64,000 nucleotides of DNA from Bacteroidetes Order II. bacterium. GTDB taxonomy: Bacteria > Bacteroidota > Rhodothermia > Rhodothermales > UBA2364. Where the stretch lies: contig JAEUSQ010000053.1 of assembly GCA_016788705.1 (NCBI GenBank), positions 1 to 64,000 on the forward strand. Reading direction: 5' to 3'. The translations under genes were made by a program, and so were the position numbers. Of this stretch, positions 27,071 through 61,253 are shown piece by piece. Under the pieces are notes generated by a model. It was not told where the DNA came from, made no database searches, and saw only the letters and a program-made list of their open reading frames with translations. Each line of letters opens with the position of its first letter. Position 1 is the stretch's first letter.

Positions 27071-27115
27071 TGAAAGCGGTTCCATGAGCCGGCCCTGCAA
27101 CCTTTGACCACGGAT

Positions 27116-28657
27116 ATGTTTTCATTTGGAAAAGACCACCTTGGTGTCGGTTTTGTTCTTGATTTATTAAAAAAGCCAGATTTAGGCATTCTTTCAGAAG
27201 CCGTCATTCATAAAATCTCTCAAAATGCGGCCTATGTCTCCAAAATGGCCTCTGGAGAAACCCCCGTCTATGGAATCAATACAGGATTTGGCCCCCTTTG
27301 TGATACCTTGATTTCTCCGGCACAAACTGCAGAACTTCAACACAATTTACTAATTAGTCATAGTGTGGGTGTGGGTGATCCCATTTCCGAAACGATGGCC
27401 CGCACCATGCTTATCTGCAAAGTTCATGCCTTGGCACGTGGCTTTTCCGGCATACAGCCCCAAACCATTGCCTTCCTTCTCACGATGCTTCGAGAAGGCA
27501 TCACGCCAGTTGTTCCTGAAAAAGGTTCCGTGGGAGCATCTGGCGATCTGGCGCCATTGGCCCATCTTTTCTTACCTCTTCTGGGTTTTGGAGAGGTTTT
27601 TTTTCAGGGAAATCGTCAACCTGCTCGTCGGGTTTTGGAAAAACTGGGCCTTTCTCCGATTCAATTGGGACCTAAAGAAGGGTTGGCATTGATTAATGGT
27701 ACCCAATTTATGCTTGCCCATGCTGTACATGGCGTAGCGCGGCTACATCATCACCTCGAATGGGCGGATGTCATAGGCGCGCTTTCCATCGAGGCACTAA
27801 TGGGTTCCGTAAAACCATTCGAAGCGCGGCTGCATGACCTTCGCCCTTTTCGGGGCAGTCAGTTGGTGGCCCAGCGCCTTAGGAAGTTAATCAATGGTTC
27901 CGAAGTATTGGCTTCTCATGCCGAATGTGGCCGCGTCCAAGATCCCTATTCCTTACGTTGTATCCCTCAGGTACATGGTGCCTCCAGAAACGCTTGGCTC
28001 CACCTGAAGGAAGTGACCGAGATCGAACTCAATGCCGTTACGGATAACCCCATCGTTTTAGGGATGGAAGAGGCCCTCAGTGGTGGTAATTTCCATGGAC
28101 AACCGATTGCCCTCCCATTAGATTATGCAACATTGGCTGCAGCAGAATTAGGCAACATCGCCGATAGGCGATGCTATTTAATGCTTGAAGGGCGGTATGG
28201 CCTACCCAGACTTTTACTTCATGACACGGGATTAAATTCTGGTTTTATGATCCCACAATACACCACAGCTGCTTTGGTGAGTGAAAACAAATCCTTGTGT
28301 TTCCCAGCCTCTGCCGATAGTATCCCTACCTCGCTTGGCCAAGAAGACCACGTTTCGATGGGTTCTATTAGTGGGCGCAAGCTACACATGGTTCTCGATA
28401 ATTTGGCATACATTCAGGCGATAGAATTACTCTATGCCACTCAAGCCATTGCTTTTAGGCGGCCTTTAAAATCAAGCCCCATTATCGAAGAAATCATTGG
28501 ACTGGTGCGTGAAAAAGTGGATTTTGCTACCCAAGACAAAGTGTTATCTGCAGACATCCATGCTTTGCACCAACTCATTCTTTCCGACACCCTCACCCAA
28601 ACATTAGCCTCCCATGAAGAACTCAACGATGGATTCGACTCTTTCGGACTTTATTAA
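27116..28657 (+). CDS. hutH: histidine ammonia-lyase
   Basis: A 513-residue enzyme that removes ammonia from L-histidine to give urocanate, the first step of histidine degradation. The autocatalytic MIO cofactor triad is A141-S142-G143 in [14 protein letters not shown]. Other family landmarks are [32 protein letters not shown]-type ([15 protein letters not shown]) and NPIV. Start at ATG 27116 rather than TTG 27104. It is the first gene of the hut operon; the end overlaps hutU by 29 bases. Confidence 0.97.
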
Positions 28658-30311
28658 GACATATGCTGCGCATCCAGTTTATCGCGCGCCAATGGGACGC
28701 CAATTACACGCAAAGTCATGGCAGACGGAAGCTCCCTTGCGTATGTTATTAAACAACTTAGATGCAGCCGTTGCTGAAAACCCGGAAGAGCTTGTTGTTT
28801 ACGGCGGCATCGGACAAGCAGCCCGTGACCGTCCGGCTCTCGAAAAAATCATTGCCTTACTTTTGGAATTAGACGAAAACCACTCCCTTTTAATCCAATC
28901 TGGCAAGCCCGTTGGAATCGTCCGCACACACCCTGAAGCCCCCCGTGTACTCATTGCAAACAGCAATTTGGTTCCGCATTGGGCCAATTGGAAACATTTT
29001 AATGAACTACGCGAAAGGGGGTTGATGATGTATGGTCAAATGACCGCCGGAAGCTGGATCTACATCGGTTCGCAAGGCATTCTTCAAGGAACTTACGAAA
29101 CCTTCATGGAATGTGGCCGACAACATTTTGGTGGCAATTTACGTGGAAAACTTTTGGTTTCAGGTGGCTTGGGTGGGATGGGCGGCGCACAACCCTTGGC
29201 CGCCACAATGGCTGGTGCTACCTTTCTGGGCGTAGATATAGACCCCACTCGTATCCAAAAACGTTTGGAAACACACTATATAGACCGCATGACCGATTCT
29301 TTTAGCGAGGCCATGCTTTGGATTCAAACCGCCATGAGCAAGAAGGAAAACCTCTCGGTGGGGTTGGTAGGCGATATTGGCGATGTACTGGAAAAACTGT
29401 TGGAAGCGGGCATTACACCCGATATTCTTACCGACCAAACATCCGCCCACGACCCCTTAAATGGTTATGTACCGTATGGATTAACACCAGAAGAAGCCCT
29501 TAAATTACGAAAGAGTGATCCAGTCCTCTATCAGGAGCGTGCATTAAGAAGCATGGCCCGTCATGTCGGTTTCATGCTACAGCACCAAGCAAACGGCGCC
29601 GTTGTCTTTGACTATGGCAACAATTTACGGGAATTTGCGCGTCAGGGTGGCGAACCCAATGCCTTTAATTTTCCAGGATTTACCCCTGCTTACATCCGCC
29701 CACTTTTTTGTGAAGGAAAAGGCCCATTTCGGTGGGTGGCGCTTTCTGGTGACCCGGAAGACATCTTCACCACCGATCGTGCCTTATTAGCACTTTTCCC
29801 CGAAAACACGGGCCTCGCCACTTGGATTCGAGGGGCGCAGGAAAAAGTGGCTTTCCAAGGGCTTCCTGCACGTATCTGCTGGCTTGGAATGGGTGAACGA
29901 GAACAGGCGGGTTTGCTTTTTAATGAACTGGTGCGTTCTGGGAAAGTGAAAGCACCGATTGTCATTGGTCGAGATCATTTAGATTGTGGCTCCGTGGCCT
30001 CTCCGAACCGAGAAACAGAAGCCATGAAAGACGGAACTGACGCCGTTTCCGACTGGGCCTTGCTCAATCTAATGTCCAATACTGCGGGAGGCGCTACTTG
30101 GGTTTCCTTTCACCACGGCGGCGGGGTAGGTATGGGTTTTTCGCAGCACGCGGGCATGGTTGTGGTGGCCGACGGAACGGATCGGGCAGCGGCCTGTATT
30201 CGTAGGGTGTTGCACAACGATCCAGCCTTAGGTGTTTTTCGCCATGCAGATGCCGGATATGACAAGGCGCAAGAATGGGCGAAACGGTTTGACTTAGATA
30301 TGTGGGGTTAA
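28629..30311 (+). CDS. hutU: urocanate hydratase
   Basis: A 560-residue cytoplasmic enzyme converting urocanate to imidazolonepropionate with tightly bound NAD+. It has [14 protein letters not shown], the dinucleotide-fold glycine cluster [19 protein letters not shown], and the active-site block [20 protein letters not shown] followed by [18 protein letters not shown]. Length is normal. Start at the ATG at 28629 inside the end of hutH gives the expected N-terminus; an ATG 15 bases earlier is possible. Translational coupling to hutH is likely. Confidence 0.96.
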
Positions 30312-30325
30312 AAAAAGGTGATGAC

Positions 30326-31567
30326 ATGAACCAGTCCGTACTCATTGGCCCTTTTACCCAAATTCTTCCTTTGGATGATTTGCCACTTAAAGGCGCCTTG
30401 ACCGATGATCGGTTACGCAGTATTAAGGCGGGTGGAATTTTGGTTGAGGCAGGCAAAGTCAAGGCCATTGGCCGATTTGATAATTTGCATAGGCAATTTC
30501 CACACGCTTCCATTCAGGAGATCACACAAGAAGCCGTGGTACTTCCCGGTTTTGTAGATGCGCACACCCATGCGTGTTTTGCAGGCAGCCGCGCCCTAGA
30601 TTTTGCTGCCCGAAATGCCGGGAAAAGTTATTTGGAAATTGCCGAAAGCGGCGGTGGCATCTGGCGAACCGTTGGTGCAACCCGTGAGGCCAGCGAAGCC
30701 GAACTTGCCACCAAAACATTGCATCACACCGATGTTTTTTTGCGTCAAGGAGTCACCACCATCGAAGTTAAAAGCGGGTATGGTTTATCGGTTAACGCAG
30801 AATTAAACATGATGCGGGCCATCCAGCGTGCTGCACAAGAAAGTACCGCAACCATCATTCCCACTTGCCTTGCAGCGCATATGCTGCCTCGCGACTTTGC
30901 AGGGGACCACCAAAGCTATTTGGCCTATATTGAACACGAACTCTGGCCCGTCATCCTAAAAGAAAATCTAAGTAAGCGTATAGATATTTTTATTGAACGT
31001 TCGGCATTTCCTTCCCAAGTTGGCCTTCTTTACTTACAAAAAGCACGAGAGGCCGGGTTTTCGGTCTGTGTTCATGCAGACCAGTTCACCACAGGCGGTT
31101 CAACGGTTGCAGTAAAAGTGGGCGCTGCGTCAGCAGATCACCTCGAAGCCAGTGGACCAACAGAAATCAAACAAATAGCAGCCTCCAAGACCGTTGCCAT
31201 TGCCTTGCCAGGTGCTTCGATGGGCCTCGGAGAACCCTTTGCCCCTGCACGGGCCCTATTGGATGCAGGTGCTACCGTTGCCATTGCCAGTGACTTCAAT
31301 CCGGGATCGGCTCCAATGGGCCATTTGTTGTTACAAGCCTCCGTTTTGGCCACCTACCAGAAGCTCAGTACCGCCGAGGTCTTTGCTGGTTTAACATTTC
31401 GTGCCGCTAAAGCATTGGAGTTGTCTGATACAGGATCATTGCAAGTGGGCTATGTGGGTGACTTTCAGGCCTATCCTACAAATGATTACCGCGAAATCTT
31501 GTATTCTCAAGGGAGAATAGCACCTTTTTACGTTTGGAAGCACGGTAAAGCCTATAAAATTAGATAA
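30326..31567 (+). CDS. hutI: imidazolonepropionase
   Basis: A 413-residue amidohydrolase that opens imidazolonepropionate to formiminoglutamate. The metal motif H80-x-H82 is in VDAHTHACFAGSR; further ligands are in CLAAHMLPRDF, CVHADQFT and ASDFNPGSAPM. AGGTGA six bases before the ATG at 30326 is one of the clearer ribosome-binding sites in the window and decides this start over an upstream in-frame GTG at 30302 that overlaps hutU. It is the third gene of the operon. Confidence 0.96.
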   Translation: MNQSVLIGPFTQILPLDDLPLKGALTDDRLRSIKAGGILVEAGKVKAIGRFDNLHRQFPHASIQEITQEAVVLPGFVDAHTHACFAGSRALDFAARNAGKSYLEIAESGGGIWRTVGATREASEAELATKTLHHTDVFLRQGVTTIEVKSGYGLSVNAELNMMRAIQRAAQESTATIIPTCLAAHMLPRDFAGDHQSYLAYIEHELWPVILKENLSKRIDIFIERSAFPSQVGLLYLQKAREAGFSVCVHADQFTTGGSTVAVKVGAASADHLEASGPTEIKQIAASKTVAIALPGASMGLGEPFAPARALLDAGATVAIASDFNPGSAPMGHLLLQASVLATYQKLSTAEVFAGLTFRAAKALELSDTGSLQVGYVGDFQAYPTNDYREILYSQGRIAPFYVWKHGKAYKIR

Positions 31568-31569
31568 TT

Positions 31570-32532
31570 ATGTACCAAAATCCAGATCTCGCCCATTGGC
31601 AGGGTCGAATAGATGGAGAAACGCCCGAATATTGGCGGTGGCATCAGGCCATAAAAATACGCTCTTTATCAGACATAGGACCAGCCCCTCCAGAAAAAGC
31701 CGTGGCACTCTTGGGCTTTGCTTGCGACGAAGGGGTTCGGCGGAACCAAGGTAGAACAGGAGCCTCTTTGGGCCCAGTTTCTTTGCGAAATGCCTGTAGA
31801 AACCTCCCTTGGCACTTTCCCGACTTTGTGACGGTAACGGATGTCGGAGATATCGTCTGCGTGGGAACGCAATTAGAAGAGGCCCAATCACATCTTAGCG
31901 CAGCTATTCATCAACTTCAGACCAATCAATATTTTACCGTGGTCATGGGTGGAGGACACGAAGTGTTGTATGGCCATTATAAAGGCTTGCGCCAAGCCTT
32001 CCCCGACGCAAGGATCGGCATTATTAACTTTGACGCACATTTTGATTTACGGGCCGTTGAACCAAGCACAGGCCCTACATCAGGAACAGGATTCTGGCAA
32101 ATTGCCCAAGAAGAACCCCTTTATTATTTAGCACTTGGCATACAAAGAAACGGTAATACTGCCGCCCTTTTTGAGCAAGCCCGCACGCTGAATGTAACCG
32201 TTATCCAAGCAGACGATTTTCACACGGACTACCGAGAAGGGATACGGAAAACCATACATACCTTTATGTCAACTGTGGATATACTATACCTCACGATTTG
32301 CTTAGACGTTTTTGCGACGGCATTTGCACCCGGTGTCAGTGCACCAACCGCCATGGGCCTACATCCTGATGCGATGTTAAGAGAGGTTCTTAGGCCCATC
32401 ATTTACTCATCAAAACTGGTTTCGATAGACATTGCGGAATTAAACCCAACCTACGACCAAGACGACCGTACAGCCAAATTGGCGGCACACTTAATCTCCG
32501 ACACCATTTTCGCCCAAACACTTAATACATAA
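31570..32532 (+). CDS. hutG: formimidoylglutamase
   Basis: A 320-residue member of the arginase/ureohydrolase family that hydrolyses N-formimidoylglutamate to glutamate and formamide, the last step of this pathway version. The two-manganese ligands are in VMGGGHEVLYG, NFDAHFDLR and LTICLDVFATAFAPG. The motif order and length fit HutG rather than arginase. It starts 2 bases after the hutI stop, so the two are coupled. Presence of hutG shows the four-step route without the formylglutamate (hutF) branch. Confidence 0.95.
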   Translation: MYQNPDLAHWQGRIDGETPEYWRWHQAIKIRSLSDIGPAPPEKAVALLGFACDEGVRRNQGRTGASLGPVSLRNACRNLPWHFPDFVTVTDVGDIVCVGTQLEEAQSHLSAAIHQLQTNQYFTVVMGGGHEVLYGHYKGLRQAFPDARIGIINFDAHFDLRAVEPSTGPTSGTGFWQIAQEEPLYYLALGIQRNGNTAALFEQARTLNVTVIQADDFHTDYREGIRKTIHTFMSTVDILYLTICLDVFATAFAPGVSAPTAMGLHPDAMLREVLRPIIYSSKLVSIDIAELNPTYDQDDRTAKLAAHLISDTIFAQTLNT

Positions 32533-41477: not shown

Positions 41478-44400
41478 TCATTTCAACAAGGTCATCTTGC
41501 CTTGTAGTAACGTGGTCTTGGATTTTGATTGCACTGTTAGGCGATAGATATAGGTTCCAGATTGCAAGTTTTGGCCATCTATGTTGAGGGACTGATTTTT
41601 TCCGGCTCCAAAGGGTTGGGCAGGGATAAATTGTACCTTACGGCCTAACAAATCAAAAATATCAACTGAAACCATCGTCGCGTCTGAGGTATCAAAAATA
41701 AGGGTGGTGATAGGATTAAATGGGTTGGGGTAATTTCCTTGCAAAACAAAGGTTTCAGGAAGGGTATTTTCCATTTCACTATTCACCAAACCAGCCATAA
41801 AGACAATCTGGGCGTTACTTGGGATGGATTCAAGCGAGTTGTCCTGTACCACATACTCTATGTATGGAATTTTAACGGGAGTTGCTTGTTGCCCCCTAAA
41901 GGTTGGTTTTACGGTTAGGTTTACAACCCCCAACAGCCCATCCCCACTAACCATTTTATCCTGTGACCCACCATCTAAAACCACCGCAATGGTTAACGTG
42001 GTAAGGGTACCTTCTACCTTTGTGGTCGTAATGGGCGAAAATAATCTTCCGCCATTTTTGGTTAAAATATTGGCCTCTCCATTTTTACCCGCCATATTAA
42101 AACTATCAAATTCAAAGTCGCGGGTATCGTAAGTGAACAGAACTTGATAACCTTTGACGTTCAACACTTTTTGCGTACGGACCTCAATTGGCAAAATACC
42201 GTTTCCTTTAATGGGGCTGCTAAGAACCGTATGCTTTTGGTCACCATTGGACATATCAAGGTCTAATGCCCCAAGTGCGCCTGCATTTTGTAAGGATGCT
42301 TTGATGAACGCTACTTCAATGGTTTGGTCTGTGGTTACGTTGGTGAAGGTATAGGTATTGGTTGCGGGAATAGAACTCCCATTTATTCGGATATTGTTAA
42401 CCCGATACCCACTATCGGGTGTAATGGTAACGGTTAGGTTTTGCCCATGATTGACAATGGCTTCTTCGCCAATGGAGAGTTTACCACCTGTGCCTACGGT
42501 TGCTTTGATGGTGTAAGGTTTTACAAAACTCGTGGGCAGCTTAGTTTGTTCGGGTGTGCCGTCGCCATTAGTGTCTATTTTTATAGGTGTGGTAATGGCG
42601 GCTGTACTGGTGGTGTAGGTTTGTGTGATGACGGTTGTTGGGGTAACAGGGATACTATTATATATATTTACCCCTACGTAATTACCTTCAGAAAAGTTTT
42701 TAACAGCAAGGTTGACACTTCCATTAGTTGTACTTGATAATTTGGTGATATATCCAGTAGCACTATATGGTACAAATACCTTTACATTTAAACTATCTGT
42801 AGAAATACCAATGCGGCTTTCAGGTATTTCTTGGATCAAGATATTATTCTCATTAACACCAGACTTTCGTCCTTGCTGATCTTGAATAATAAATGCAGGG
42901 ATTTTTTTTACTCTTGATGATGTTTTGTTTAAAGCATTATTAGTAGGTTTGTAGTTACTATAAAACCCAATATCTGTTCTTGGTTTATCGGAAATGTCGT
43001 CAAGGAAAAGTGGGTATGTACCAGAAGTATTTTTTACAGAGAATGTTAGGTCATGGGTTTGTTCTTTAAATTTATTAGGAATTGGTACACATACTTGCCT
43101 AGTAATACCTATATGAGTAAAAGCGATACTATGTATGATTTCTCCACTCATATAAACATCTAATATAGCAGGAGTATCTGCTATTTGCCCTACTCTTAGC
43201 GGGTTTAAAACAAAATCTAATTCTGCATTAAAGCAAATATTACTCATTGTTTTAGGAATAAAAAACTTATTATGAGTTCTACTTTCACCTTTCACTAACT
43301 TAAGCTTAAAATTAGAAACATTTAACCAAGCTCCAATTAAATCCTCTGCAATAGAAAATCCCCCACCTCCGCCTCCTTGTTGCGACCAGCCTGGTATATC
43401 ATATTCTGTTGGGTCTGTAACGGTATGTTTTTCAAAGTCCCCATTAAAGATAATATCAATTGCATTATTCAATTTGTTGTCGAGTAATGGCAATTGGTTT
43501 TGTACACGAAATAAATCTAAATTAGCAGGATTAACTTTTGTTTTATTAAAGCCAATAGACTCCCTGTCATTATTTTTATACCATGCAAGGTTTATGTCTG
43601 TTGCTATTAAATCTACTACTTCTTCTGATAGATCATTTATAGGTGTCGTTCCAACAAGTGTTTTATATAATTCACTGTTTAATACAGTGTCTTTTAATCC
43701 ATTATTTTGTGCAGATTGATCAATTGTGCCATAATAGTAACGATGAGGTACAGAGTGTGAAACTTTACCTAAATAGTTTGAATACTGTCCACCCTCAATA
43801 ATACTTAAACCACTTAATCGATTAAGGCATAAAAGCCACTTGGCGAAGCTTAAAAAACTTCCGTCTGGTTTTAAAGAACATTTTATTTTTTCCCAAACAC
43901 TTCCTTTGTCTTGCCAATAATTATCAATATATCCAATATTTTCCCATGCCAAAACAGGTTTTACCTTACCCCCATTCACCCCCGAATCATTAGAGAAAAA
44001 TAATGGATCAGAAACCCCTTCCCCACAATTACTTGATTTACAATTAGTAGGGTGAGCATCTAACGTTGTAAAGTGTATTTGATTATCAATAGGAATACTT
44101 ATCCAATTATTTTTCGTATAAACACCAAGCCTTTGTATGGCTTCACTAGATACAACAGCACCTCTGCTATGCCCTATAAAATGTAATTGCCTTAATCCCC
44201 ACTTATTTTCTTGTGCGCCTTTTACCAATAAAGCTGCCAAAGCATCTCCTGCACCTTCCGCATAACCTTCTGTATTTCGGTCTGATTCGGGTATCCAATT
44301 GAAAACGATGATTTTTTCACCACTGGGATACAAACATTCTTTTTGTGCGATATTACTGGATTCTATAAAGTAAATACATCCTCCAACTCTATTCGAAATT

Positions 44401-46769
44401 GCCTTTGCCATCGTATGCATCCAAGTATCAGAAGCACTATTTGATAACCCTATTGCTGGTGTAAAGCCATGAACAATAACCGTTGTGCCATACGAACGGT
44501 TTTTAGGAGTACCTTGCAACGAAATCTCGCATGCAATGGTAGCCATTGTTGTAGTGCAGCCCAAGTTTGAACTACTATTAATTTGTACTTTAGTGCTTAA
44601 ATTTAGCAGTGTCGTTGGTTTATACCATATTGTAAAGGTTATACTTTCATCTTTTGCAACTGTTGGTGGGTTTGTAATATCAAAACTTTTAGGCGTTGTA
44701 TCAGAGGTACGCTTATAGAGGGTTACAAACACATTTGGGTTTGACAAAAAGGGGGTTATAAATGTCCCTATTGTTCCTTTATTGGTAATTGTGAACGATG
44801 CTTCCTTATGATCAAAAAGTAATGCATCTCCAAAATTTATCGCAGTTGTAGAAAGAACAAGACTATTGCTTCCAATAGCATTAGCTGTAAAATTTCTGCC
44901 TGTGAGGGCAGCACCACTAACAACGATGCTTTGCGAAGTTGGAGCAAAGGTGTAGGCAGACGAAGTAGGCGTAAGCGTGTATGTGCCATTGGGTACATTT
45001 TGGAAGGTGAAGTCGCCATTGGTATTGGTGCTAGCCGTTTTATTGCCCAAGGTAAGCGCAACATTTGACAAGCCATTGCCATTAAAGGTTATGCGCCCTG
45101 ATACCGTATAAGCGGTACTTTGCCCTTGTACAGTAAAACTCCGAATCTCGGAATAGTCGCTGGAGCGGCTACCATCGCTGTTTTGGGCATTTGCACGCCA
45201 ATAATAGGTAGCACCTGCGGTGAGTGCCGTACTGGGTGTAAACGTCGTGCCTGTTTGTAAGGATTGCGTTACAATGCTATAATTCCCATTGACCAAAGAC
45301 AGCACCTGAACCAAATACTTTGCTGCACCAGTTACGGGGTTCCAAGAAAAAGTAGGCGTAGCGCTTAGGTTGGTAGCGCCATTGAGAGGACTGATGAGTT
45401 GCGGCGCTGTAAGACCGGGCGATATTTGTGTGGTGAATGACCACACCCCAGACCATGCGCTGCTACCTGTTGCATTTTTTGCCCGTACCCGCCAATAATA
45501 GGGCGTATTATATGTCAATGCCGTACTTGGGGTATAACTTGTACCTGTAACAGCAATGGGTGATGGACTGGCATCTGTGAAGTTATTGCTATTGGAAACC
45601 TGCACCTCGTACCCTGTTGCACCACTTACGGCATTATAGGTTAAAGTTGGGGTGATGGATTGATTGGTAGCGGCGTTGCTTGGGGCTGTGAGGGTAGGTG
45701 CAGACAAAGATGTTTGAGGCGAAACATTCCAAAGTTGGATATAATTTGCAGAGGTACCTGATCCAGCAGTTGCAATCGTTTTTCCATCGGGTGAAAATGA
45801 AACACCACCCATTCCCCAATAATTATTTGTGTCAATTGACTTGAGTAAGTTTCCTGTCGTAAAATCATATAATTTTAATACATAATCCCCAGTACCCACA
45901 GTCTTGTCCGATGTTGTAAATAAAGTTTTATTGTCTGGACTTAATCCATTTAATTTTATTGATTCACCTCCTATCACTTTGAACACTTGAGCCGTTGTGG
46001 TATTATAAGCTTGGACCCCTAAAGTAGTACCAGATTTATATACGCTTGCAGTAACATATTGATTATCATTTGTAAAAGAATAGTTTCTTGAAAGACCAAA
46101 GCCATAATGAGCCTTCTTAATAAAATCATAGTTAACATACAAAGACGGACTCCCTTGAAACGCCATTAAGCCATTATAATTAACTAACAACCCCAATACA
46201 ATGACAATTTGACCATTTGGCGACCATTGTACTGCCCCTCCTCCACTACTACCAGTAACCGTTTTAATGATATTTCCTGTGGCAAAATCGACAATTTTTA
46301 GAACTTCAGAAGTTGTAAAACAATTACACGTCATTGCTATTTTACTTCCATCTAGAGAAAACACAAAATCTCCCATATCACCGCTATATGGAGAAATCAG
46401 AGCAATGGTTCGAGCTAAATTTAAGTTTGATGTATTCCAAACCCGAATTCCAGTGCTACCAGAGCCAGTTTCTCCGCTTGAAACAATATAATTTCCATCA
46501 GGCGAATAGATCGCTTTACCGACTCCTCCTTGATGAGCATTATTTATTGCCTGAATGACCTTACCTGTACTAACATCCCAAATTCGTATTGCACCATCTG
46601 GATGTGCAGTCATTATCTTTGTTCCATCTTTAGAGAAAGTCAAAGAATTAAAAGTTGTTACAATAGGATCAAAGTTACGAATAGGAGTGTCTTGCGCAAA
46701 TGTGCTTTGAGTACACAAGGTAAAAAGGCATAGATATAGGAAAAAGAGGGTTTTTATCGGTAAACGCAT
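41478..46769 (-). CDS. very large mosaic T9SS-secreted protein with propeller, fibronectin-like and alpha/beta hydrolase parts
   Basis: A 1763-residue secreted protein. In order: signal peptide (to STFAQ); WD40-like propeller with SKDGTKI, SPDGNYIVSS and SPDGKTIATAG repeats (30-350); two fibronectin type-III-like repeats with TPYYWRVRAKN and ATYYWRANAQN (355-550); carboxypeptidase-regulatory-like domain (557-630); an abnormal-spindle-like segment (640-760); an alpha/beta hydrolase with VIVHGFTP, nucleophile Ser868 (FIGHSRGA), Asp904 and His1005 as triad candidates; a carbohydrate-binding-like region; a bacterial repeat (SGYRVNNIRINGS, about 1425-1490); a cohesin-like sheet (1503-1660); and the T9SS type A sorting domain from NYPNPFNP to KMTLLK. 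The hydrolase and propeller blocks are AT-richer than the flanking repeats. It should be cell-surface-anchored or released. The hydrolase substrate may be a lipid or ester; unknown. Confidence 0.85.
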   Translation of the reverse strand: MRLPIKTLFFLYLCLFTLCTQSTFAQDTPIRNFDPIVTTFNSLTFSKDGTKIMTAHPDGAIRIWDVSTGKVIQAINNAHQGGVGKAIYSPDGNYIVSSGETGSGSTGIRVWNTSNLNLARTIALISPYSGDMGDFVFSLDGSKIAMTCNCFTTSEVLKIVDFATGNIIKTVTGSSGGGAVQWSPNGQIVIVLGLLVNYNGLMAFQGSPSLYVNYDFIKKAHYGFGLSRNYSFTNDNQYVTASVYKSGTTLGVQAYNTTTAQVFKVIGGESIKLNGLSPDNKTLFTTSDKTVGTGDYVLKLYDFTTGNLLKSIDTNNYWGMGGVSFSPDGKTIATAGSGTSANYIQLWNVSPQTSLSAPTLTAPSNAATNQSITPTLTYNAVSGATGYEVQVSNSNNFTDASPSPIAVTGTSYTPSTALTYNTPYYWRVRAKNATGSSAWSGVWSFTTQISPGLTAPQLISPLNGATNLSATPTFSWNPVTGAAKYLVQVLSLVNGNYSIVTQSLQTGTTFTPSTALTAGATYYWRANAQNSDGSRSSDYSEIRSFTVQGQSTAYTVSGRITFNGNGLSNVALTLGNKTASTNTNGDFTFQNVPNGTYTLTPTSSAYTFAPTSQSIVVSGAALTGRNFTANAIGSNSLVLSTTAINFGDALLFDHKEASFTITNKGTIGTFITPFLSNPNVFVTLYKRTSDTTPKSFDITNPPTVAKDESITFTIWYKPTTLLNLSTKVQINSSSNLGCTTTMATIACEISLQGTPKNRSYGTTVIVHGFTPAIGLSNSASDTWMHTMAKAISNRVGGCIYFIESSNIAQKECLYPSGEKIIVFNWIPESDRNTEGYAEGAGDALAALLVKGAQENKWGLRQLHFIGHSRGAVVSSEAIQRLGVYTKNNWISIPIDNQIHFTTLDAHPTNCKSSNCGEGVSDPLFFSNDSGVNGGKVKPVLAWENIGYIDNYWQDKGSVWEKIKCSLKPDGSFLSFAKWLLCLNRLSGLSIIEGGQYSNYLGKVSHSVPHRYYYGTIDQSAQNNGLKDTVLNSELYKTLVGTTPINDLSEEVVDLIATDINLAWYKNNDRESIGFNKTKVNPANLDLFRVQNQLPLLDNKLNNAIDIIFNGDFEKHTVTDPTEYDIPGWSQQGGGGGGFSIAEDLIGAWLNVSNFKLKLVKGESRTHNKFFIPKTMSNICFNAELDFVLNPLRVGQIADTPAILDVYMSGEIIHSIAFTHIGITRQVCVPIPNKFKEQTHDLTFSVKNTSGTYPLFLDDISDKPRTDIGFYSNYKPTNNALNKTSSRVKKIPAFIIQDQQGRKSGVNENNILIQEIPESRIGISTDSLNVKVFVPYSATGYITKLSSTTNGSVNLAVKNFSEGNYVGVNIYNSIPVTPTTVITQTYTTSTAAITTPIKIDTNGDGTPEQTKLPTSFVKPYTIKATVGTGGKLSIGEEAIVNHGQNLTVTITPDSGYRVNNIRINGSSIPATNTYTFTNVTTDQTIEVAFIKASLQNAGALGALDLDMSNGDQKHTVLSSPIKGNGILPIEVRTQKVLNVKGYQVLFTYDTRDFEFDSFNMAGKNGEANILTKNGGRLFSPITTTKVEGTLTTLTIAVVLDGGSQDKMVSGDGLLGVVNLTVKPTFRGQQATPVKIPYIEYVVQDNSLESIPSNAQIVFMAGLVNSEMENTLPETFVLQGNYPNPFNPITTLIFDTSDATMVSVDIFDLLGRKVQFIPAQPFGAGKNQSLNIDGQNLQSGTYIYRLTVQSKSKTTLLQGKMTLLK

Positions 46770-53784: not shown

Positions 53785-54059
53785 AACAAGCAATAAATGA
53801 GACAATAACTAGAAGCTACTAAGTATCCTCTCAAAACACAAGCATAATTTTTCCTATTCGTTTTCCTCGATGTATGCTTCTGCCTCGTATATTTTTTCAC
53901 GCTTTTGGCCAAAATCTTTAAAAAACATCCGGATTAGGGCTTGCAGGGAGACAAAAGAGGTTGTAATATGGAAAATAGGGCAACCTTCACGCGCCCATTG
54001 GCATCTACTTCATATATCATCAGATGCAACTTTGAACTACTCACCCTACACACTTGGTC

Positions 54060-55034
54060 ATGGCAAAAAAATCAATTTCCTCTGTTCCAAAAAAAATTGG
54101 CATTTTACGTGGAATGGAAACCACCTTTCCGGACGCGTTAATCCCCTATATCAACGAACATTATGGGGACCGTGGCGTGGTTGCCGAGTTTTGTAATTTA
54201 GACGCCTTTTCACAGGATGAAGCGCCGGCTTACGACCTAATCCTCGATCGTATTTCCCACGAAGTCCCTTTTTACCGCTCGTATCTAAAGGCAACGGCCA
54301 TAAAAGGTACCTACGTTATTAATAATCCATTTTGGTGGAGTGCCGACGATAAGTTTATCAATAATTTTGTTGCCCAACAAGTTGGGGTTGCCGTTCCCCG
54401 AACAGTCATTCTCCCCCACAACCAACATCCGCCCAATACGCAGACCACCTCTTTCCGCAACCTTAACTATCCATTGGATTGGCAAAAGGTATTTGATTAT
54501 GTTGGATTTCCAGCCTTTATGAAGCCACACGACGGCGGTGGTTGGCGTGGTGTTACCAAGGTCAACAATCCCGAAGAATTTTTTACTGCATACAATGCGT
54601 CTGGCACAGACTGCATGATGTACCAAGAAGGAATTGAATTTACCGAATATTTCCGCTGTTATGGTGTAGGCAGGAAAAAAGTACACATCATGCGGTATAA
54701 CCCTGGAGCGCCGCATCATTTAAGGTACAAAGATGTACCACAGGAGCCTATTGCACCAGACCTACATGCGCGTTTAGAAAGGGATGTATTGGCGCTGTGT
54801 AATGCCTTGGGGTACGACCTTAATACGGTCGAATTTGCGGTTCGGGACGGTATTCCGTATGCGATTGACTTTATGAATCCAGCACCAGATGGTGACTACC
54901 ACTCGGTCGGTCACGAAAACTTTGAATGGATTGTGACCCATATGGCCGAGTTTATGGCCGAAAAGGTCTTGAGCCACAAGCGTAAGCCTCTTGCGTTTTC
55001 CCCTGGAAAAGCCTTAGACAAGAAAGGTTTCTAA
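54060..55034 (+). CDS. ATP-grasp ligase 1 of a multi-ligase cluster (RimK-like)
   Basis: A 324-residue cytoplasmic enzyme. After an N-terminal Rossmann-like part (about 10-115) comes the ATP-grasp fold: Lys155 in FPAFMKPHDGGGWRGV (nucleotide Lys and glycine loop), MMYQEGIEFTEYFR (adenine hinge), and the magnesium pair D270 and N273 in YAIDFMNPAPDGD. Such enzymes join a carboxylate, activated as acylphosphate, to an amine or thiol. It is the first gene of a five-gene run, starting at ATG 54060; the 53785-54059 gap upstream should carry the cluster promoter. A terminator-like hairpin follows it. The substrate is unknown. Confidence 0.85.
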   Translation: MAKKSISSVPKKIGILRGMETTFPDALIPYINEHYGDRGVVAEFCNLDAFSQDEAPAYDLILDRISHEVPFYRSYLKATAIKGTYVINNPFWWSADDKFINNFVAQQVGVAVPRTVILPHNQHPPNTQTTSFRNLNYPLDWQKVFDYVGFPAFMKPHDGGGWRGVTKVNNPEEFFTAYNASGTDCMMYQEGIEFTEYFRCYGVGRKKVHIMRYNPGAPHHLRYKDVPQEPIAPDLHARLERDVLALCNALGYDLNTVEFAVRDGIPYAIDFMNPAPDGDYHSVGHENFEWIVTHMAEFMAEKVLSHKRKPLAFSPGKALDKKGF

Positions 55035-55043
55035 TTATTGGAA

Positions 55044-55072
55044 GGGGGCTCCAAGCCCCCGCTTATTTTTTA
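55044..55072 (+). terminator. terminator-like hairpin inside the ATP-grasp cluster
   Basis: GGGGGCT (55044-55050) and AGCCCCC (55054-55060) with a 3-base loop are followed by GCTTATTTTTTAA. It lies 10 bases past the first ligase gene and may let only part of the transcription continue to the next gene, giving more of ligase 1 than of the others. Confidence 0.65.
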
Positions 55073-55097
55073 ACCATTTAAAGCGACCACCAGTCCC

Positions 55098-56459
55098 ATG
55101 CAACAACGGTTATACGAAGCCATCAACCACTATCACGGGCTTATTTCCGCTGATCTTGCTTCGGCTGAAGCACAACTCACCCTCTTGGCTGATTTGCAAC
55201 AACAGGAAGAAACCCTGTTCGGAGACCGTCCCCTCACCACCACTTTACGCCCTGCCTTCATTACCGAGAGTACTTATACGCGAATGCAGGATGTCATTTA
55301 TCTCTTCCGGCAGGCCGTAATTAGTATTGCAAGAGCTTTTTTCAATGACGAACACATCCTCAAAAACATTTTGTGCATGGAGGATTGGGAAATAGAACTG
55401 GCCGCGATTCCAACCAAAATTGCACGTTTTTCAGTGCTTTCGCGCATGGATTCGTTTGTGACCGAGCACGGGTTTAAATTTGTGGAGTTGAATGGAGAAA
55501 GCCCTGCTGGGCTGGCGTATAACCATCATTTGCACAAGGTTTACAAAAAACTTCCCATTTTTAGCGCTTTCGAGAAACAATTTCCCGTTCGTTATATATC
55601 GCCATTAGAACATACCATTCAAGCGATGTTGCGGGCATACCACGAGGAATTCGACGGTACCGAAGAACGGCCTACGTTCTGTATTGTGGACCACTTAGAT
55701 GTCCCCACTATTCATGAGTTTAACCTGACCAAAGCTTATCTGGAACGAATGGGCTTTCCTTGCGAGATTGCTCATCCCAAAGATTTAGACATCAAAGATG
55801 GTTGGATTTATGCAAATGGCCGTAAAATTGACATTCTTTATCGTCGTTTATTGATGAATGAATATTATGATATCAAAGATGACTGCAAAAATTATCTCGA
55901 AGGGTATCGTCAACAAAAAACGTGCTACCTAAACACATTCCGGTCTAAGTTGGTGCATAAAAAATCTATTTTTGAATTCCTCACCGACGAGTCCTACACC
56001 CGTGTGCTTACCATCGAACAAGCAGAAGCCATTCGTCAACATATTCCTTGGACCCGTATCCTCAAAGAACGTAAGACCAAATTCCGTGGGCTACCCATAG
56101 ATTTGGTTCCATTTGTTCGCGCCAATAAGCAATTCTTCGTTATTAAACCCAATGATGAATATGGTGGCAAAGGCGTCACCCTCGGCTTCTCGGCAAGCCA
56201 GAGCGAGTGGGACGATGCGATTCATGACGCCATCACAAATGGTCCATATGTCGTACAAGAAGTGGTGGATATTCATCGTGAACCATACCTCATGTTTGTC
56301 GAAAAGGAATGGAAGATGGTTCCTGTGGTTGTGGACTTGGATCCCTATGTGAACGGCCCACTCATGGGAGGGTGCCTAACCCGTATTTCATCTTCAAATT
56401 TAGCGAATGTCACCGCTGGTGCAGGGTCGCTGCCCACCTTTATCCTACGGTATAGTTAA
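55098..56459 (+). CDS. ATP-grasp-like enzyme 2, possibly circularly permuted type
   Basis: A 453-residue cytoplasmic protein. The N-terminal half is helical with FKFVELNGESPAGLAYN, which recalls the pre-ATP-grasp region of glutathionylspermidine synthase-like and circularly permuted ATP-grasp proteins. The C-terminal half has Lys350 in FFVIKPNDEYGGKGVTLGF (nucleotide Lys and glycine loop), YVVQEVVDIHREPY and the strand MVPVVVDLDPY, ending GCLTRISSSNLANVTAGAGS. The typical D/E-x-N metal pair at the end is not seen; ELNGES near residue 131 could supply it if the fold is permuted. It is the second gene of the cluster. Likely an amide ligase with a substrate I cannot name. Confidence 0.75.
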   Translation: MQQRLYEAINHYHGLISADLASAEAQLTLLADLQQQEETLFGDRPLTTTLRPAFITESTYTRMQDVIYLFRQAVISIARAFFNDEHILKNILCMEDWEIELAAIPTKIARFSVLSRMDSFVTEHGFKFVELNGESPAGLAYNHHLHKVYKKLPIFSAFEKQFPVRYISPLEHTIQAMLRAYHEEFDGTEERPTFCIVDHLDVPTIHEFNLTKAYLERMGFPCEIAHPKDLDIKDGWIYANGRKIDILYRRLLMNEYYDIKDDCKNYLEGYRQQKTCYLNTFRSKLVHKKSIFEFLTDESYTRVLTIEQAEAIRQHIPWTRILKERKTKFRGLPIDLVPFVRANKQFFVIKPNDEYGGKGVTLGFSASQSEWDDAIHDAITNGPYVVQEVVDIHREPYLMFVEKEWKMVPVVVDLDPYVNGPLMGGCLTRISSSNLANVTAGAGSLPTFILRYS

Positions 56460-56516
56460 AATGGAAACCCTTTTTATGGGATCCAAATTAACATCCGATT
56501 GATTCGTGGAGAATTA

Positions 56517-56550
56517 AGGGCGTACGGCTTGCCTGTATGCCCTGCTTTTA
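56517..56550 (+). terminator. weak terminator-like hairpin between ligase 2 and the amidotransferase gene
   Basis: AGGGCGTAC (56517-56525) and GTATGCCCT (56534-56542) form a 9-base stem with one G-T pair, followed by GCTTTTATG. It is weaker than the hairpin at 55044. The two together suggest stepwise attenuation along the cluster. Confidence 0.35.
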
Positions 56551-56606
56551 TGTAGGTTTATTGGATTGGCCCGCCCCGAATCCTCCTTGCATTTAAACAA
56601 AACGAT

Positions 56607-57464
56607 ATGGAGTCCCTCAGTACAAAGCCCCTCCGGGTGGCGATACTGGACATGAACAACAATCATCCCAATTTGGGATTGAACTGCATCCGGACGATGG
56701 TCAAGCTACAGTCCGGTGAAATAGAAAATGTTCTATTGGATTATGACATTTTTGATGTTCGTGCCCGTAACGAAGTACCGGATCTTTCTTATGACATTTA
56801 TATCTCGTCCGGCGGTCCCGGAAGTCCTTATGACGGAGAAGGAACCGACTGGGAGGAAAAATATTTTGAATGGATACGAGATGTATGGGCCTACAATTTA
56901 GACCATGAGCCAGAAGCCCGGAAGCATGTCTTTTTTATTTGTCATTCCTTCCAAATGGCCGTTCGGTTTTTCAAACTGGCGAAAGTTGTCCCACGAAAAG
57001 GAGAGTCATTTGGTATTTTCTCCTGTTCGCTCACCGAGGCCGGAAAAAGGGAAGTCATTTTTGAAGGGCTCGATGACCCTTTCTACATTGCAGACTTCCG
57101 GAAATGGCAAGTGATTCAGCCTGATTGGGAACGCCTTGCAGGTTTGGGAGCAGAAATATTGTGCATTGAACAAGAACGTCCACATGTCCCCTTAGAGCGT
57201 GCTGTAATGGGCATTCGGATTACCCCCGAAATGATAGGGGTACAATTTCATCCCGAAGCAGACCCGCCTGGCATGGCTTGGCACTTTATTCAACCTGAAC
57301 GCCAACAGGCCATAAAAGAAAACTTTGGGGAAGCCAAGTACCAACGGATAATGAGCCATTTATACGATCCGAATTATTTACTAAAGACCTATAACAGCGT
57401 TTTACCCAACTTCCTCCGGAATGCCATTTTGGCACTTCGGCCCCAAATCTTGCAAGAGGTATGA
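56607..57464 (+). CDS. class-I glutamine amidotransferase-like protein of the ATP-grasp cluster
   Basis: A 285-residue cytoplasmic protein. The nucleophile elbow is C112 in FFICHSFQMA (consensus G-x-C-x-G, here with Ile and Ser in place of both glycines), and His215 and Glu217 are in IGVQFHPEADPP. SSGGPGSPYD is the oxyanion strand. The triad is intact, so it can hydrolyse glutamine or a gamma-glutamyl bond; the changed elbow hints at a peptide substrate instead. The last 50 residues are an extra helical tail. It is the third gene of the cluster and probably removes or transfers a glutamyl or amide group. Confidence 0.8.
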   Translation: MESLSTKPLRVAILDMNNNHPNLGLNCIRTMVKLQSGEIENVLLDYDIFDVRARNEVPDLSYDIYISSGGPGSPYDGEGTDWEEKYFEWIRDVWAYNLDHEPEARKHVFFICHSFQMAVRFFKLAKVVPRKGESFGIFSCSLTEAGKREVIFEGLDDPFYIADFRKWQVIQPDWERLAGLGAEILCIEQERPHVPLERAVMGIRITPEMIGVQFHPEADPPGMAWHFIQPERQQAIKENFGEAKYQRIMSHLYDPNYLLKTYNSVLPNFLRNAILALRPQILQEV

Positions 57465-57620
57465 GGCCTTTGGGGGAAATTGTGTAGCCATTTTGTTTGT
57501 ATGGGCAAAAAGGAGTGGGCAAAGGTGTTGGCTTTCACCATCAAAGAAACCAACTTACTAAATTATCGAGATACACCAAGTCACCCTTTACGCTTCATAG
57601 ATACCCTCAATCCTCTGTGT

Positions 57621-58580
57621 ATGACCGAAGAAGAAATACTCACCCGCCACCGACAGCACTTGCACGGCAGCCTAAAAACCATCCGGCTAAAATCCAATGC
57701 GCTGCGGGTGTATAAAAATTTTTATGTTTATGAGCCGCCCTATTACGGCCATCCGATGTACCCTCAGGAGACCTCGTTGCTGTATTTATTTAGGGGCCAT
57801 GAACGTGAATATGTAAACATGTCGGAAGACGGCTCGCGTAAAATGGTTACTACCATTGAGCTGTTGGATCAGTTGATTGTAGCGGGTATCCTTCCGCCTG
57901 TCATTGCCATTCTACCAGGCCTCAATAGCAATAACAATCATGTCCCTTCTTTGGGAATTGATATGGCAGGGAAATGGGAACGAGGATTAAAAGGGCTGGG
58001 AACTGGGAAATTCTGGGAGTATATGACGCAGGAATTGTTTCCCTATGTGGAAACCCGATGGCCTTTGAGCAAAAAAGGGCTTCGCCTTGGTGCTGGGTTT
58101 TCACTGGGCGGTTATACGGTGAGCATGATTGCGGCACGTGTGCCCACTTTTTTCCACCATGTCGGGATATACGACGGTACGATGATGTGGCCGGATCAAA
58201 ACGACCCACGATACCCTGAGCCGGAAGACGGCGTTTGGCGGTCTGCACGCCTATTTGATGCCGCATTGGGTTCCCCAAGAGATGCAAAACTGATGCATCA
58301 ATGGAATCCTACCGATCTTATTTTGGAGTCTAATGGGGAAAAACTCGAAAAATTACGCAAAATCACCTTCTGGGTAGCCAGTACCCCCTTTGATGGGATG
58401 CGCGGGAACCGCGAACGATGTGAGTATTTTTTACAAATGCTCCAAGACAAAAACATCCCGGTCGGCTGGAAATCCGTTCCCTTTGATCCCGCCGCAGAGC
58501 ATAATTGGTATTGGAACAACTTGTTTGTCATGCGTTTTTTAAAATCCGTTTTTCAGAAAACAGATCCGGCGACCCCTTAA
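57621..58580 (+). CDS. esterase-family alpha/beta hydrolase of the ATP-grasp cluster
   Basis: A 319-residue cytoplasmic hydrolase similar to the esterase D/Fes group. Nucleophile Ser161 is in GAGFSLGGYTV, His294 is in PAAEHNWYWNN, and Asp258 (TPFDGMRGN) is the likely acid. TSLLYLFRGHEREYVNM and ILPGLNSNNNHVPSLGID surround the oxyanion strand. There is no signal peptide. The ATG at 57621 starts MTEEEILTRHRQHL; an earlier in-frame ATG at 57501 would add 40 residues and start 37 bases after the amidotransferase gene. It could release, cyclise or trim the ligase product. Fourth gene of the cluster. Confidence 0.82.
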   Translation: MTEEEILTRHRQHLHGSLKTIRLKSNALRVYKNFYVYEPPYYGHPMYPQETSLLYLFRGHEREYVNMSEDGSRKMVTTIELLDQLIVAGILPPVIAILPGLNSNNNHVPSLGIDMAGKWERGLKGLGTGKFWEYMTQELFPYVETRWPLSKKGLRLGAGFSLGGYTVSMIAARVPTFFHHVGIYDGTMMWPDQNDPRYPEPEDGVWRSARLFDAALGSPRDAKLMHQWNPTDLILESNGEKLEKLRKITFWVASTPFDGMRGNRERCEYFLQMLQDKNIPVGWKSVPFDPAAEHNWYWNNLFVMRFLKSVFQKTDPATP

Positions 58581-58656
58581 ATATTGTTTTTTTGACCCCA
58601 ATTTTTGCTTAAAACAACCCTATCCTTTTTATTTATCATACCCAACACGCACCTTC

Positions 58657-59835
58657 ATGCACCAAAAAACCATTCTTTGTGTGGCCAGTTATTTTAAGGG
58701 CGCACGCTTTATTCAAGCAGCAAAAGCGCAGGGCTGGCGCGTCTTGTTGCTGACCTCACTCTCTATCAAAAACGAACCCTGGCCCTGGGCATCTATTGAC
58801 GATGTTTTTTATATCGCAGACGACAATCATAAATGGCACATGCCGGATGTGATTAAAGGCGTCAGTCATTTAGCCAGAAGAGAGAAGTTAGACAAAATTG
58901 TTCCGCTCGATGATTTAGATGTCGAGAAAGCGGCTGAACTCCGGGAGCACCTTCGTATTCCAGGATTGGGCACAACCCAAACCCGCTTCTTTCGCGACAA
59001 GTTGGCCATGCGCGAACGGGCACAAGCCCACCATATTTTGGTTCCACCGTTCATCCATGCCCTACATTATCAAACCGTGACCGATTTTGCAAGCCGTGTT
59101 CCAGGTCCGTGGGTTGTGAAACCTCGTTCGGAAGCGGGTTCTATGGGAATTAAAAAGGTTTATACCACCGAGGAATTATGGGCCGTTATCCACAGCCTTG
59201 GCGATGAACAATCGAACTTTCTGATTGAGCAATTTATTCCGGGAGACATTTTCCATGTGGATTCTATTTTTGTAAACGGTAAAGCCATTTTTCAATTGGT
59301 ACACCAATACGAGAACCCACCTTTGGCCGTAACACAAGGCGGTGGGGTTTTCTGTAGTCATAATGTCTTATACAAAAGTGAGGTGGACAAGACCCTGCGC
59401 GAATACAACAAGACCATTCAGAAAACAATGGGGCTTAAAAATGGCGTTGCCCATACCGAGTTTATCAGAGCACATGCAGATGGCGAATTTTATTTTTTAG
59501 AAACCGCTGCCCGTGTCGGTGGTGCACACATTGCCGATATGATCGAAGCTTCTGCGGGGATTAATCTATGGGAAGAATGGGGGAAGTTGGAATGTTTGCA
59601 CGAGGATGAGCAATATCAGCTTCCAAAAATCAGAAAAGAATACGGCGGTATCCTGATTACCCTATCTAAAGTAGAACATCCGGATTATAGTGCTTATACC
59701 GACCCCGAAATCGTCTGGCGGATGCATGACAACCGTTATCATGCTGGTTTAATTGTCCGTGCAACGGATTTAGAGCGGGTCAAATCCCTATTAAACGGAT
59801 TTTCTGAGCGGTTCCGAGACGACTTTTGTGCCTAA
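58657..59835 (+). CDS. ATP-grasp ligase 3 (carbamoyl-phosphate-synthase-like fold)
   Basis: A 392-residue cytoplasmic enzyme. The N-terminal Rossmann domain starts TILCVASYFKGARFIQAAKA. The ATP-grasp part has DKLAMRERAQAHHI, Lys155 in WVVKPRSEAGSMGIKKV, NFLIEQFIPGDIFHVDSIF and the metal-binding end YFLETAARVGGAHIAD with Glu282. This is the branch seen in carboxylate-amine ligases and dipeptide ligases such as BacD and PurK/CarB-like proteins. It is the last gene of the cluster, with a strong terminator behind it. It differs from ligases 1 and 2, so three distinct bonds or steps are possible. Confidence 0.87.
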   Translation: MHQKTILCVASYFKGARFIQAAKAQGWRVLLLTSLSIKNEPWPWASIDDVFYIADDNHKWHMPDVIKGVSHLARREKLDKIVPLDDLDVEKAAELREHLRIPGLGTTQTRFFRDKLAMRERAQAHHILVPPFIHALHYQTVTDFASRVPGPWVVKPRSEAGSMGIKKVYTTEELWAVIHSLGDEQSNFLIEQFIPGDIFHVDSIFVNGKAIFQLVHQYENPPLAVTQGGGVFCSHNVLYKSEVDKTLREYNKTIQKTMGLKNGVAHTEFIRAHADGEFYFLETAARVGGAHIADMIEASAGINLWEEWGKLECLHEDEQYQLPKIRKEYGGILITLSKVEHPDYSAYTDPEIVWRMHDNRYHAGLIVRATDLERVKSLLNGFSERFRDDFCA

Positions 59836-59899: not shown

Positions 59900-60877
59900 T
59901 CAAATAGCGGTCCAAATGGCTCCTTGCTTCTGCCAACCTCCTCTTGCCATTCGTGGGGTTGAATAGGCCCATGCACCGTTTCCGTAGCGATCCAATATAA
60001 TGATGCCAGCAGTTGCCTCAATCTTTTGCCCCTTCTGATGTTTTTGGAAGAGGTGTCGTAATGCTTGTACTGCGGCTTCGGCAAGAGGTTGTTGGGCGGA
60101 AACCTGAAAAGCTATCCGACTACTTAGCTGTACCCCCAAAATACCTTCTCCCCAACCTGTAGCACTACACGCCACCAGTTCGTCAGCAAAAAAGCCTGCT
60201 CCTGGGATAGGAGAATCGCCTACCCGACCAGCAAGGGTGAACGGCGCTCCTCCCGTAGAAGTACCAGCTGCCAAGTTGCCAAATGCATCACGAACCACAC
60301 ATCCTACTGTTCCACGAGGCATTGCATTTCCCGAAAAAGCAGTACTGGTATGAAAACTGGTATCGAGGAGCAGTTGTTCATATCTTCTCTGCTCGCGGAC
60401 TGTGTGAAAATAATCTGGCTTAACCGGATGAAAACCATTGGCGGCTGCGAAACGTTCTGCGCCTTCCGCAACCAAAAACCGATTTTGTCCCCGCCCCTCT
60501 TCCATCAGTCGAAAGGCCACTTGGATAGGATGTTGTATGGTTTTGACACCAGCTACGGCTCCGTATGCAGCTGTTTCGCCACACATAATCCCAGCATCTA
60601 ATTCCACTTCTCCATCTCTATTAAACACAGCCCCAATGCCAGCATCGAAGGCTGGGTGTCGTTCCAGCAAGGTTATGACTTCCCGAACAACCGATGTACA
60701 TTTTTTGTTTTGCAATAACAGTCTTCTACCACGATCCAAAGCCATCCTCATGCCTTCTTCGTGCATCCTCGTCTCACCGAAAGGAATATCCCAAGCGCCT
60801 CCATGCACCAAAATCATGGGTACATTCATTTCGTTGGCCTTAACGACGCCAAAGGGAATGGAAAGTTGTTGATACAT
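59900..60877 (-). CDS. isoaspartyl peptidase/L-asparaginase (Ntn-hydrolase)
   Basis: A 325-residue precursor that cuts itself into two subunits. The nucleophile is Thr190 in MPRGTVGCVVRD, which becomes the new N-terminus. VHGGAWDIP at the N-terminus, AGIGAVFNRDGEVELDAGIM, GRVGDSPIPGAGFFADE and SATGWGEGIL are diagnostic of the plant-type asparaginase family. It hydrolyses beta-aspartyl dipeptides and asparagine. The ATG at 60877 is 8 bases after the YraN stop; longer starts would overlap YraN. It converges on the ATP-grasp cluster end; a link to the peptide-like product is possible but not shown. Confidence 0.92.
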   Translation of the reverse strand: MYQQLSIPFGVVKANEMNVPMILVHGGAWDIPFGETRMHEEGMRMALDRGRRLLLQNKKCTSVVREVITLLERHPAFDAGIGAVFNRDGEVELDAGIMCGETAAYGAVAGVKTIQHPIQVAFRLMEEGRGQNRFLVAEGAERFAAANGFHPVKPDYFHTVREQRRYEQLLLDTSFHTSTAFSGNAMPRGTVGCVVRDAFGNLAAGTSTGGAPFTLAGRVGDSPIPGAGFFADELVACSATGWGEGILGVQLSSRIAFQVSAQQPLAEAAVQALRHLFQKHQKGQKIEATAGIIILDRYGNGAWAYSTPRMARGGWQKQGAIWTAI

Positions 60878-60884
60878 ACGGGGT

Positions 60885-61253
60885 TTAATTTGCCCAAAAG
60901 GCATCTTCATAGTGCTCAATTTGAACCGCTTGCCCTTTCTGCATGACAATGGAAACAACGTCGAAGCGACATCTCGTCTCTTCCAAACGATGGAGGTGCA
61001 GATATAATTCAGCAGCCCGAATCAAACGATCCCGTTTCACGGATCCAATGGCCTCGGCAGGATGGCCAAACTGAACCGTTCTACGGGTCTTAACTTCCAC
61101 AAAGACCAAAAAAAGGGCATCTGGAGAGCGGCAAACCAAATCCAGTTCTAAATGTCCCACGCGATAATTCCGGTGGAGAATCTGGAATCCTTTTTTATGA
61201 AGGAACGCTTCGGCAACTTCCTCGCCCTGGTCACCCGTTTGTTTATTTCCCAT
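60885..61253 (-). CDS. YraN-family (UPF0102) endonuclease-like protein
   Basis: A 122-residue cytoplasmic protein. GDQGEEVAEAFLHKKGFQIL and HRNYRVGHLELDLVCRSPDALFLVFVEVKTR contain the restriction-endonuclease-like core (E, D and E-x-K) typical of YraN. It is thought to act on Holliday junctions or in competence-linked DNA processing; the exact role is not settled. It lies 4 bases after the histidine kinase gene; the ATG at 61253 is used, since longer frames run into the kinase stop region. The dprA-like gene close by is a suggestive neighbour. Confidence 0.92.
   Translation of the reverse strand: MGNKQTGDQGEEVAEAFLHKKGFQILHRNYRVGHLELDLVCRSPDALFLVFVEVKTRRTVQFGHPAEAIGSVKRDRLIRAAELYLHLHRLEETRCRFDVVSIVMQKGQAVQIEHYEDAFWAN

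Follow-up and report, generated by a model that had tools for sequence, protein, structure and literature searches.

The window, that is the whole 64,000-nucleotide stretch of DNA analysed here, carries five plus-strand genes in a row, as had been claimed in an earlier note made from the sequence alone, and open reading frames were found at each of the positions that follow. Gene A (54060-55034, 324 aa, with an alternative TTG start possible at 54054) is predicted to encode an ATP-grasp ligase of RimK/LysX fold and is the signature gene of the system, gene B (55098-56459, 453 aa) a circularly permuted ATP-grasp ligase (CP_ATPgrasp_2), gene C (56607-57464, 285 aa) a free-standing enzyme of class-I GATase fold with Cys112, His215 and Glu217, gene D (57621-58580) a PF00756 esterase with Ser161 and His294, and gene E (58657-59835, 392 aa) an ATP-grasp enzyme of the L-amino-acid-ligase type. 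The ORF of D opens at 57480; one congener lacks the stretch before the ATG at 57621 and the other conserves it poorly, which makes this ATG the likely start, and the residues of D are counted from it. The five genes are under strong purifying selection, with a dN/dS of 0.027-0.035 for all of them against the nearest species (the third species of the genus being saturated at silent sites), which excludes chance ORFs. Moreover, the catalytic residues named in the earlier note proved correct and conserved: K155, D270 and N273 in A, K350 in B, C112 in C, Ser161 and His294 in D, and K155 and E282 in E.

The B-C intergenic stretch (56460-56606, plus strand), compared in three species of the genus, is well conserved and holds a hairpin (56517-56543) of which both arms have changed between species yet stay largely paired, followed by a T-rich stretch; this hairpin is a possible attenuator. 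In two of these species the sequence after A has a further hairpin with a T-rich tail (55044-55060). Beyond E, and convergent to it, an Asparaginase_2 (beta-aspartyl-peptidase-like) gene (59900-60958) is retained in each of the three species. Elsewhere in the window are found a histidine-degradation-like run of aromatic amino acid lyase, urocanase, amidohydrolase and arginase family genes (27104-32532) and a minus-strand protein of 1763 aa with N-terminal WD40-like repeats and a Por secretion tail (41478-46769). No Rfam RNA was found within the 64-kb window, none of the five proteins matched an anti-phage defence model of PADLOC, and a search for plasmid and phage carriage of A gave no match.

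By sequence, A stays below the Pfam cut-off for ATP-grasp (15.3 against 27 bits); it matches the RimK subfamily profile with an E-value of 4.4e-5 and scores 23 bits where the curated cut-off of TIGR00768 (RimK family alpha-L-glutamate ligase) is 143.4. The AlphaFold model of A (pLDDT 88.8) matches RimK with a Z of 21.2 (VIA; rmsd 2.9, 262 residues aligned), near-tied with LysX/ArgX at Z 20.1-20.6, and residues K155, E258, D270 and N273 are conserved across 82 sequences. On the strength of this model and these residues, A is judged a member of the ATP-grasp superfamily with a RimK/LysX-like fold. It shares with the RimK and LysX/ArgX ligases the fold and the metal and ATP residues, but identity is about 16%, the RimK subfamily cut-off is far off and the LysW carrier (TIGR01206), matched in four control genomes, was not found in that of the window.

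B, which had been described as possibly circularly permuted, exceeds the Pfam cut-off for CP_ATPgrasp_2 (PF14403; 36.7 against 32 bits) and so falls inside ATP-grasp. In its permuted order D118, E130 and N132, putative metal ligands according to the motif pattern, precede K350, the putative ATP-binding lysine, and all four are conserved columns. Furthermore, B matches 3n6x, a putative glutathionylspermidine synthase. The CP_ATPgrasp_2 family also includes the ligase of the alpha-E / CP ATP-grasp / transglutaminase operon, a possible peptide-tagging system; B is 22% identical to the window genome's other CP ATP-grasp, and the canonical operon stands as a separate copy on contig C28 of the same genome (L240:4087-7517), whereas no alpha-E or transglutaminase gene lies beside B in the cluster.

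C exceeds the Pfam cut-off for GATase (PF00117; 31.4 against 22.8 bits), and its triad of C112, H215 and E217 is intact and invariant among relatives. Its AlphaFold model (pLDDT 92.6) gives Z values of 21-23 to the Thermotoga GATase TM1158, to homoserine O-succinyltransferase and to Arabidopsis gamma-glutamyl peptidase 1, all near-tied, the match to gamma-glutamyl peptidase 1 having a Z of 22.0 (rmsd 2.9, 230 residues aligned). C is like gamma-glutamyl peptidase 1 and homoserine O-succinyltransferase in fold and Cys nucleophile, but the identity to them is only 14-17%.

D exceeds the Pfam cut-off for Esterase (PF00756; 48.5 against 22 bits), belongs to the ferulic acid esterase family and has a weak match to fghA (E-value 0.0013). 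E exceeds the Pfam cut-off for ATP-grasp_4 (PF13535; 54 against 27 bits) and matches the L-amino acid ligases 4wd3, BL00235 and BacD at E-values of 6e-18 to 4e-6, that of 4wd3 being 6e-18, but it stays below every NCBIfam equivalog cut-off among the 25 matches listed. Hence the three ligases, RimK/LysX-fold A, CP ATP-grasp B and L-amino-acid-ligase-type E, are distinct, as the earlier note had held. In most of the order's other families the gene immediately before A is a sixth one, est3, coding for a 237-aa alpha/beta hydrolase; the window's genus has two est3-like genes, both on other contigs. Thus est3 belongs to the gene set but has moved away from A in the window's genus; the five genes taken as the whole set therefore miss a partner that is core elsewhere. 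Ser117 and His222 are kept in over 93% of est3 proteins. In one Ignavibacteriae locus (L036:9252-9968) they are replaced by E and K respectively, and this est3 may be a non-catalytic form.

We examined the neighbourhood of the genes among 60 relatives, of which 20 have A at high score and 19 have B; further A matches, at E-values above 1e-6, are other ATP-grasp genes. Where the contig permits, nearly all genomes with A and B have A, B and C side by side in this sequence, with D next in many. The A-B-C arrangement is seen across many families of the order and also in one further family of the class; est3 usually precedes A, and D often comes after C. Over the 60 genomes, co-occurrence gives p values of 1e-14 for A and B, 5e-15 for A and est3 and 2e-7 for A and E, uncorrected for kinship, so that related genomes do not count as independent. 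The expectation that all five genes are kept together thus holds for A-B-C, and often D, across the order, but the exact five-gene set is confined to the window's genus by E, which in the rest of the order mostly has no linkage to the cluster. E is divergent from est5, another PF00756 esterase, in four genomes; in four genomes of the order it adjoins a gene with a glycogen-synthase-like start and an M14-peptidase-like gene (by eye).

One could argue that E and at least one of the hydrolases are neighbours by chance and that A, B and C are the sole functional unit, with no single five-gene pathway. In favour of this, nearly every other family of the order has E unlinked, and C lacks an adjacent D in some (L105, L106, L115). 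However, E co-occurs with A (the p of 2e-7 above) and is found near the est3-A set in L051, L059, L096 and L119, and we consider such incidental linkage rather improbable.

Outside the order, at least 590 A-coding stretches were counted with one genome per species, and the neighbourhoods of the best 80 of these were taken. The locus tallies rest on a six-frame HMM scan, used because calling by longest ORF had concealed genes where GC content is high. In Acidobacteriota, Ignavibacteriota and Bacteroidota the order est3-A-GCS2-(GATase or M29 peptidase)-c2 is seen, in some cases with a divergent est5 before est3. Among 117 loci, the GATase is present in 35 and the M29 aminopeptidase in 44, never both, B and c2 never share a locus, and B and GCS2 are together only in L093 and L119. 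B occurs where GCS2 and c2 lie in other phyla. A plain replacement of GCS2 by B is too simple, given that L093 and L119 hold both. In the tree of A, a single well-supported group (100/98) unites the 17 genes linked to B but not to GCS2, with L093 outside it; L119 was not part of the tree. No GCS2 match was found in the window's genome or in its two congeners, in a search confined to GshA of the GCS2 type. As for c2, it exceeds no Pfam cut-off, and its profile aligns remotely with that of B over the full length, with motifs in common (hhalign E-value 5e-5, probability 67%); together with other weak profile matches, this suggests that c2 is a remote permuted ATP-grasp-like protein. It was not found in the 60 relatives of the order in a search run without a positive control genome.

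With moderate confidence, we read the cluster from the families, the folds of A and C, the catalytic residues, the linkage, the co-occurrence and the exchange of parts between lineages as a pathway, probably cytosolic, that would build a small amide-linked, peptide-like metabolite. The reactions that we infer, and their order, are as follows. A and B would each use ATP to turn a carboxylate into its acyl phosphate and then join it to an amine, giving successive amide bonds, and E, where linked, would perform the same ligation with another amino acid. C would act as a thiol hydrolase, taking off or trimming a residue held by an amide bond, for example a glutamyl protecting group or a surplus residue. 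The alpha/beta hydrolases D and est3 would cleave an ester or thioester of the product or of a precursor. There are precedents for COOH-NH2 ligases beside a GATase-like thiol peptidase (PMC2588565) and for linked peptide ligases acting in succession (PMC4431377). Two points speak against this reading, namely that lineages with a GATase and those with an M29 peptidase may make different products and that E is usually not linked to A. Furthermore, relatives among RimK and the tubulin ligases modify proteins, so that the substrate may be a protein.

Indeed, A and B could instead attach an oligopeptide to a protein encoded elsewhere, with C, the M29 peptidase and the esterases removing or editing it. 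The closest folds of A, those of RimK and of the carrier-protein ligases LysX/ArgX, are what such a modification would call for, and removal enzymes are conserved beside A. On the other hand, the window's genome gave no LysW, the surroundings of A in 99 loci show no conserved small ORF, and the presence of several ligases together with GCS2 and L-amino-acid-ligase types suits small substrates better; protein modification is accordingly held to be doubtful. The search for a precursor peptide or tag gave no conserved small ORF common to more than 6 of the 99 loci, and by eye the small ORFs shared by a few loci look like shadows of unrelated flanking genes. The earlier proposal of an amide-linked metabolite or tag is retained in one part, stepwise amide-bond formation with processing hydrolases being a good fit, but a locally encoded tag finds no small ORF to carry it.

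The PF00117 match of C and its intact Cys-His-Glu triad would suit a genuine glutamine amidotransferase, from which A or B would receive ammonia to give a terminal amide. Against such ammonia supply, the nucleophile elbow of C reads ICHSFQ and not the usual CxGxQ, its near-best folds include gamma-glutamyl peptidase and homoserine O-succinyltransferase, and ammonia-channelling GATases match the model no better than these two, the top matches being near-tied. Moreover, an M29 aminopeptidase takes the slot of C in Acidobacteriota, and the occurrence of GATase and M29 in the same slot, never together, points to a peptidase-like job. Given its fold, this exchange and the fact that no synthase partner is evident, C is likely a trimming enzyme of the gamma-glutamyl-peptidase-like or acyl-transfer type and not a supplier of amide nitrogen, and the amidotransferase alternative is judged quite unlikely.

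Some glutathione pathways pair a GCS2 with an ATP-grasp ligase. GCS2 or B together with A could in this manner make a gamma-glutamyl tripeptide, that is a glutathione-like thiol, with C as a gamma-glutamyl hydrolase and the esterases acting like S-formylglutathione hydrolase; the resemblance of C to gamma-glutamyl peptidase and the weak fghA match of D agree with this. However, the window's genome has no GCS2 match and does have BshC, from which bacillithiol is probably its thiol, and we regard a thiol product as very unlikely. A locally encoded precursor, carriage on LysW and a glutathione-type thiol are all judged less likely. A graspetide (RiPP) was rejected, no conserved small ORF that could be a precursor peptide gene lying beside the ATP-grasp in the 99 loci.

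Returning to the amide-linked metabolite, we suggest, more tentatively, that the cluster could be one lineage's version of an undescribed and very widespread pathway whose product would be an amide-linked metabolite or cofactor of a new class; whole enzyme classes would have been exchanged around a kept core of A and est3. A is present in one copy in 71 of the 198 sampled genomes of the host phylum, and a conserved single-copy set in about a third of these genomes and in several other phyla likely makes something that the cell uses. The exchange of ligase and hydrolase parts offers a ready comparative test of the role of each step, and with gene A as a clean marker, cultured strains that carry each version can be selected.

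No published description of this gene set was found in a full-text literature search that had the survey of Iyer et al. 2009 outside its scope. As relayed in PMC4431377 and PMC2588565, the multi-ligase amide or peptide systems predicted by that survey (ATP-grasp and COOH-NH2 ligases with peptidases) are like the present cluster in linking several unrelated amide ligases operonically with hydrolases, and also in having a GATase-like thiol peptidase beside COOH-NH2 ligases. Clusters of several amide ligases are thus an already predicted kind. The particular set, its spread and the exchange of its parts, of GCS2 and c2 with the CP ATP-grasp and of M29 with the GATase, are worked out here.
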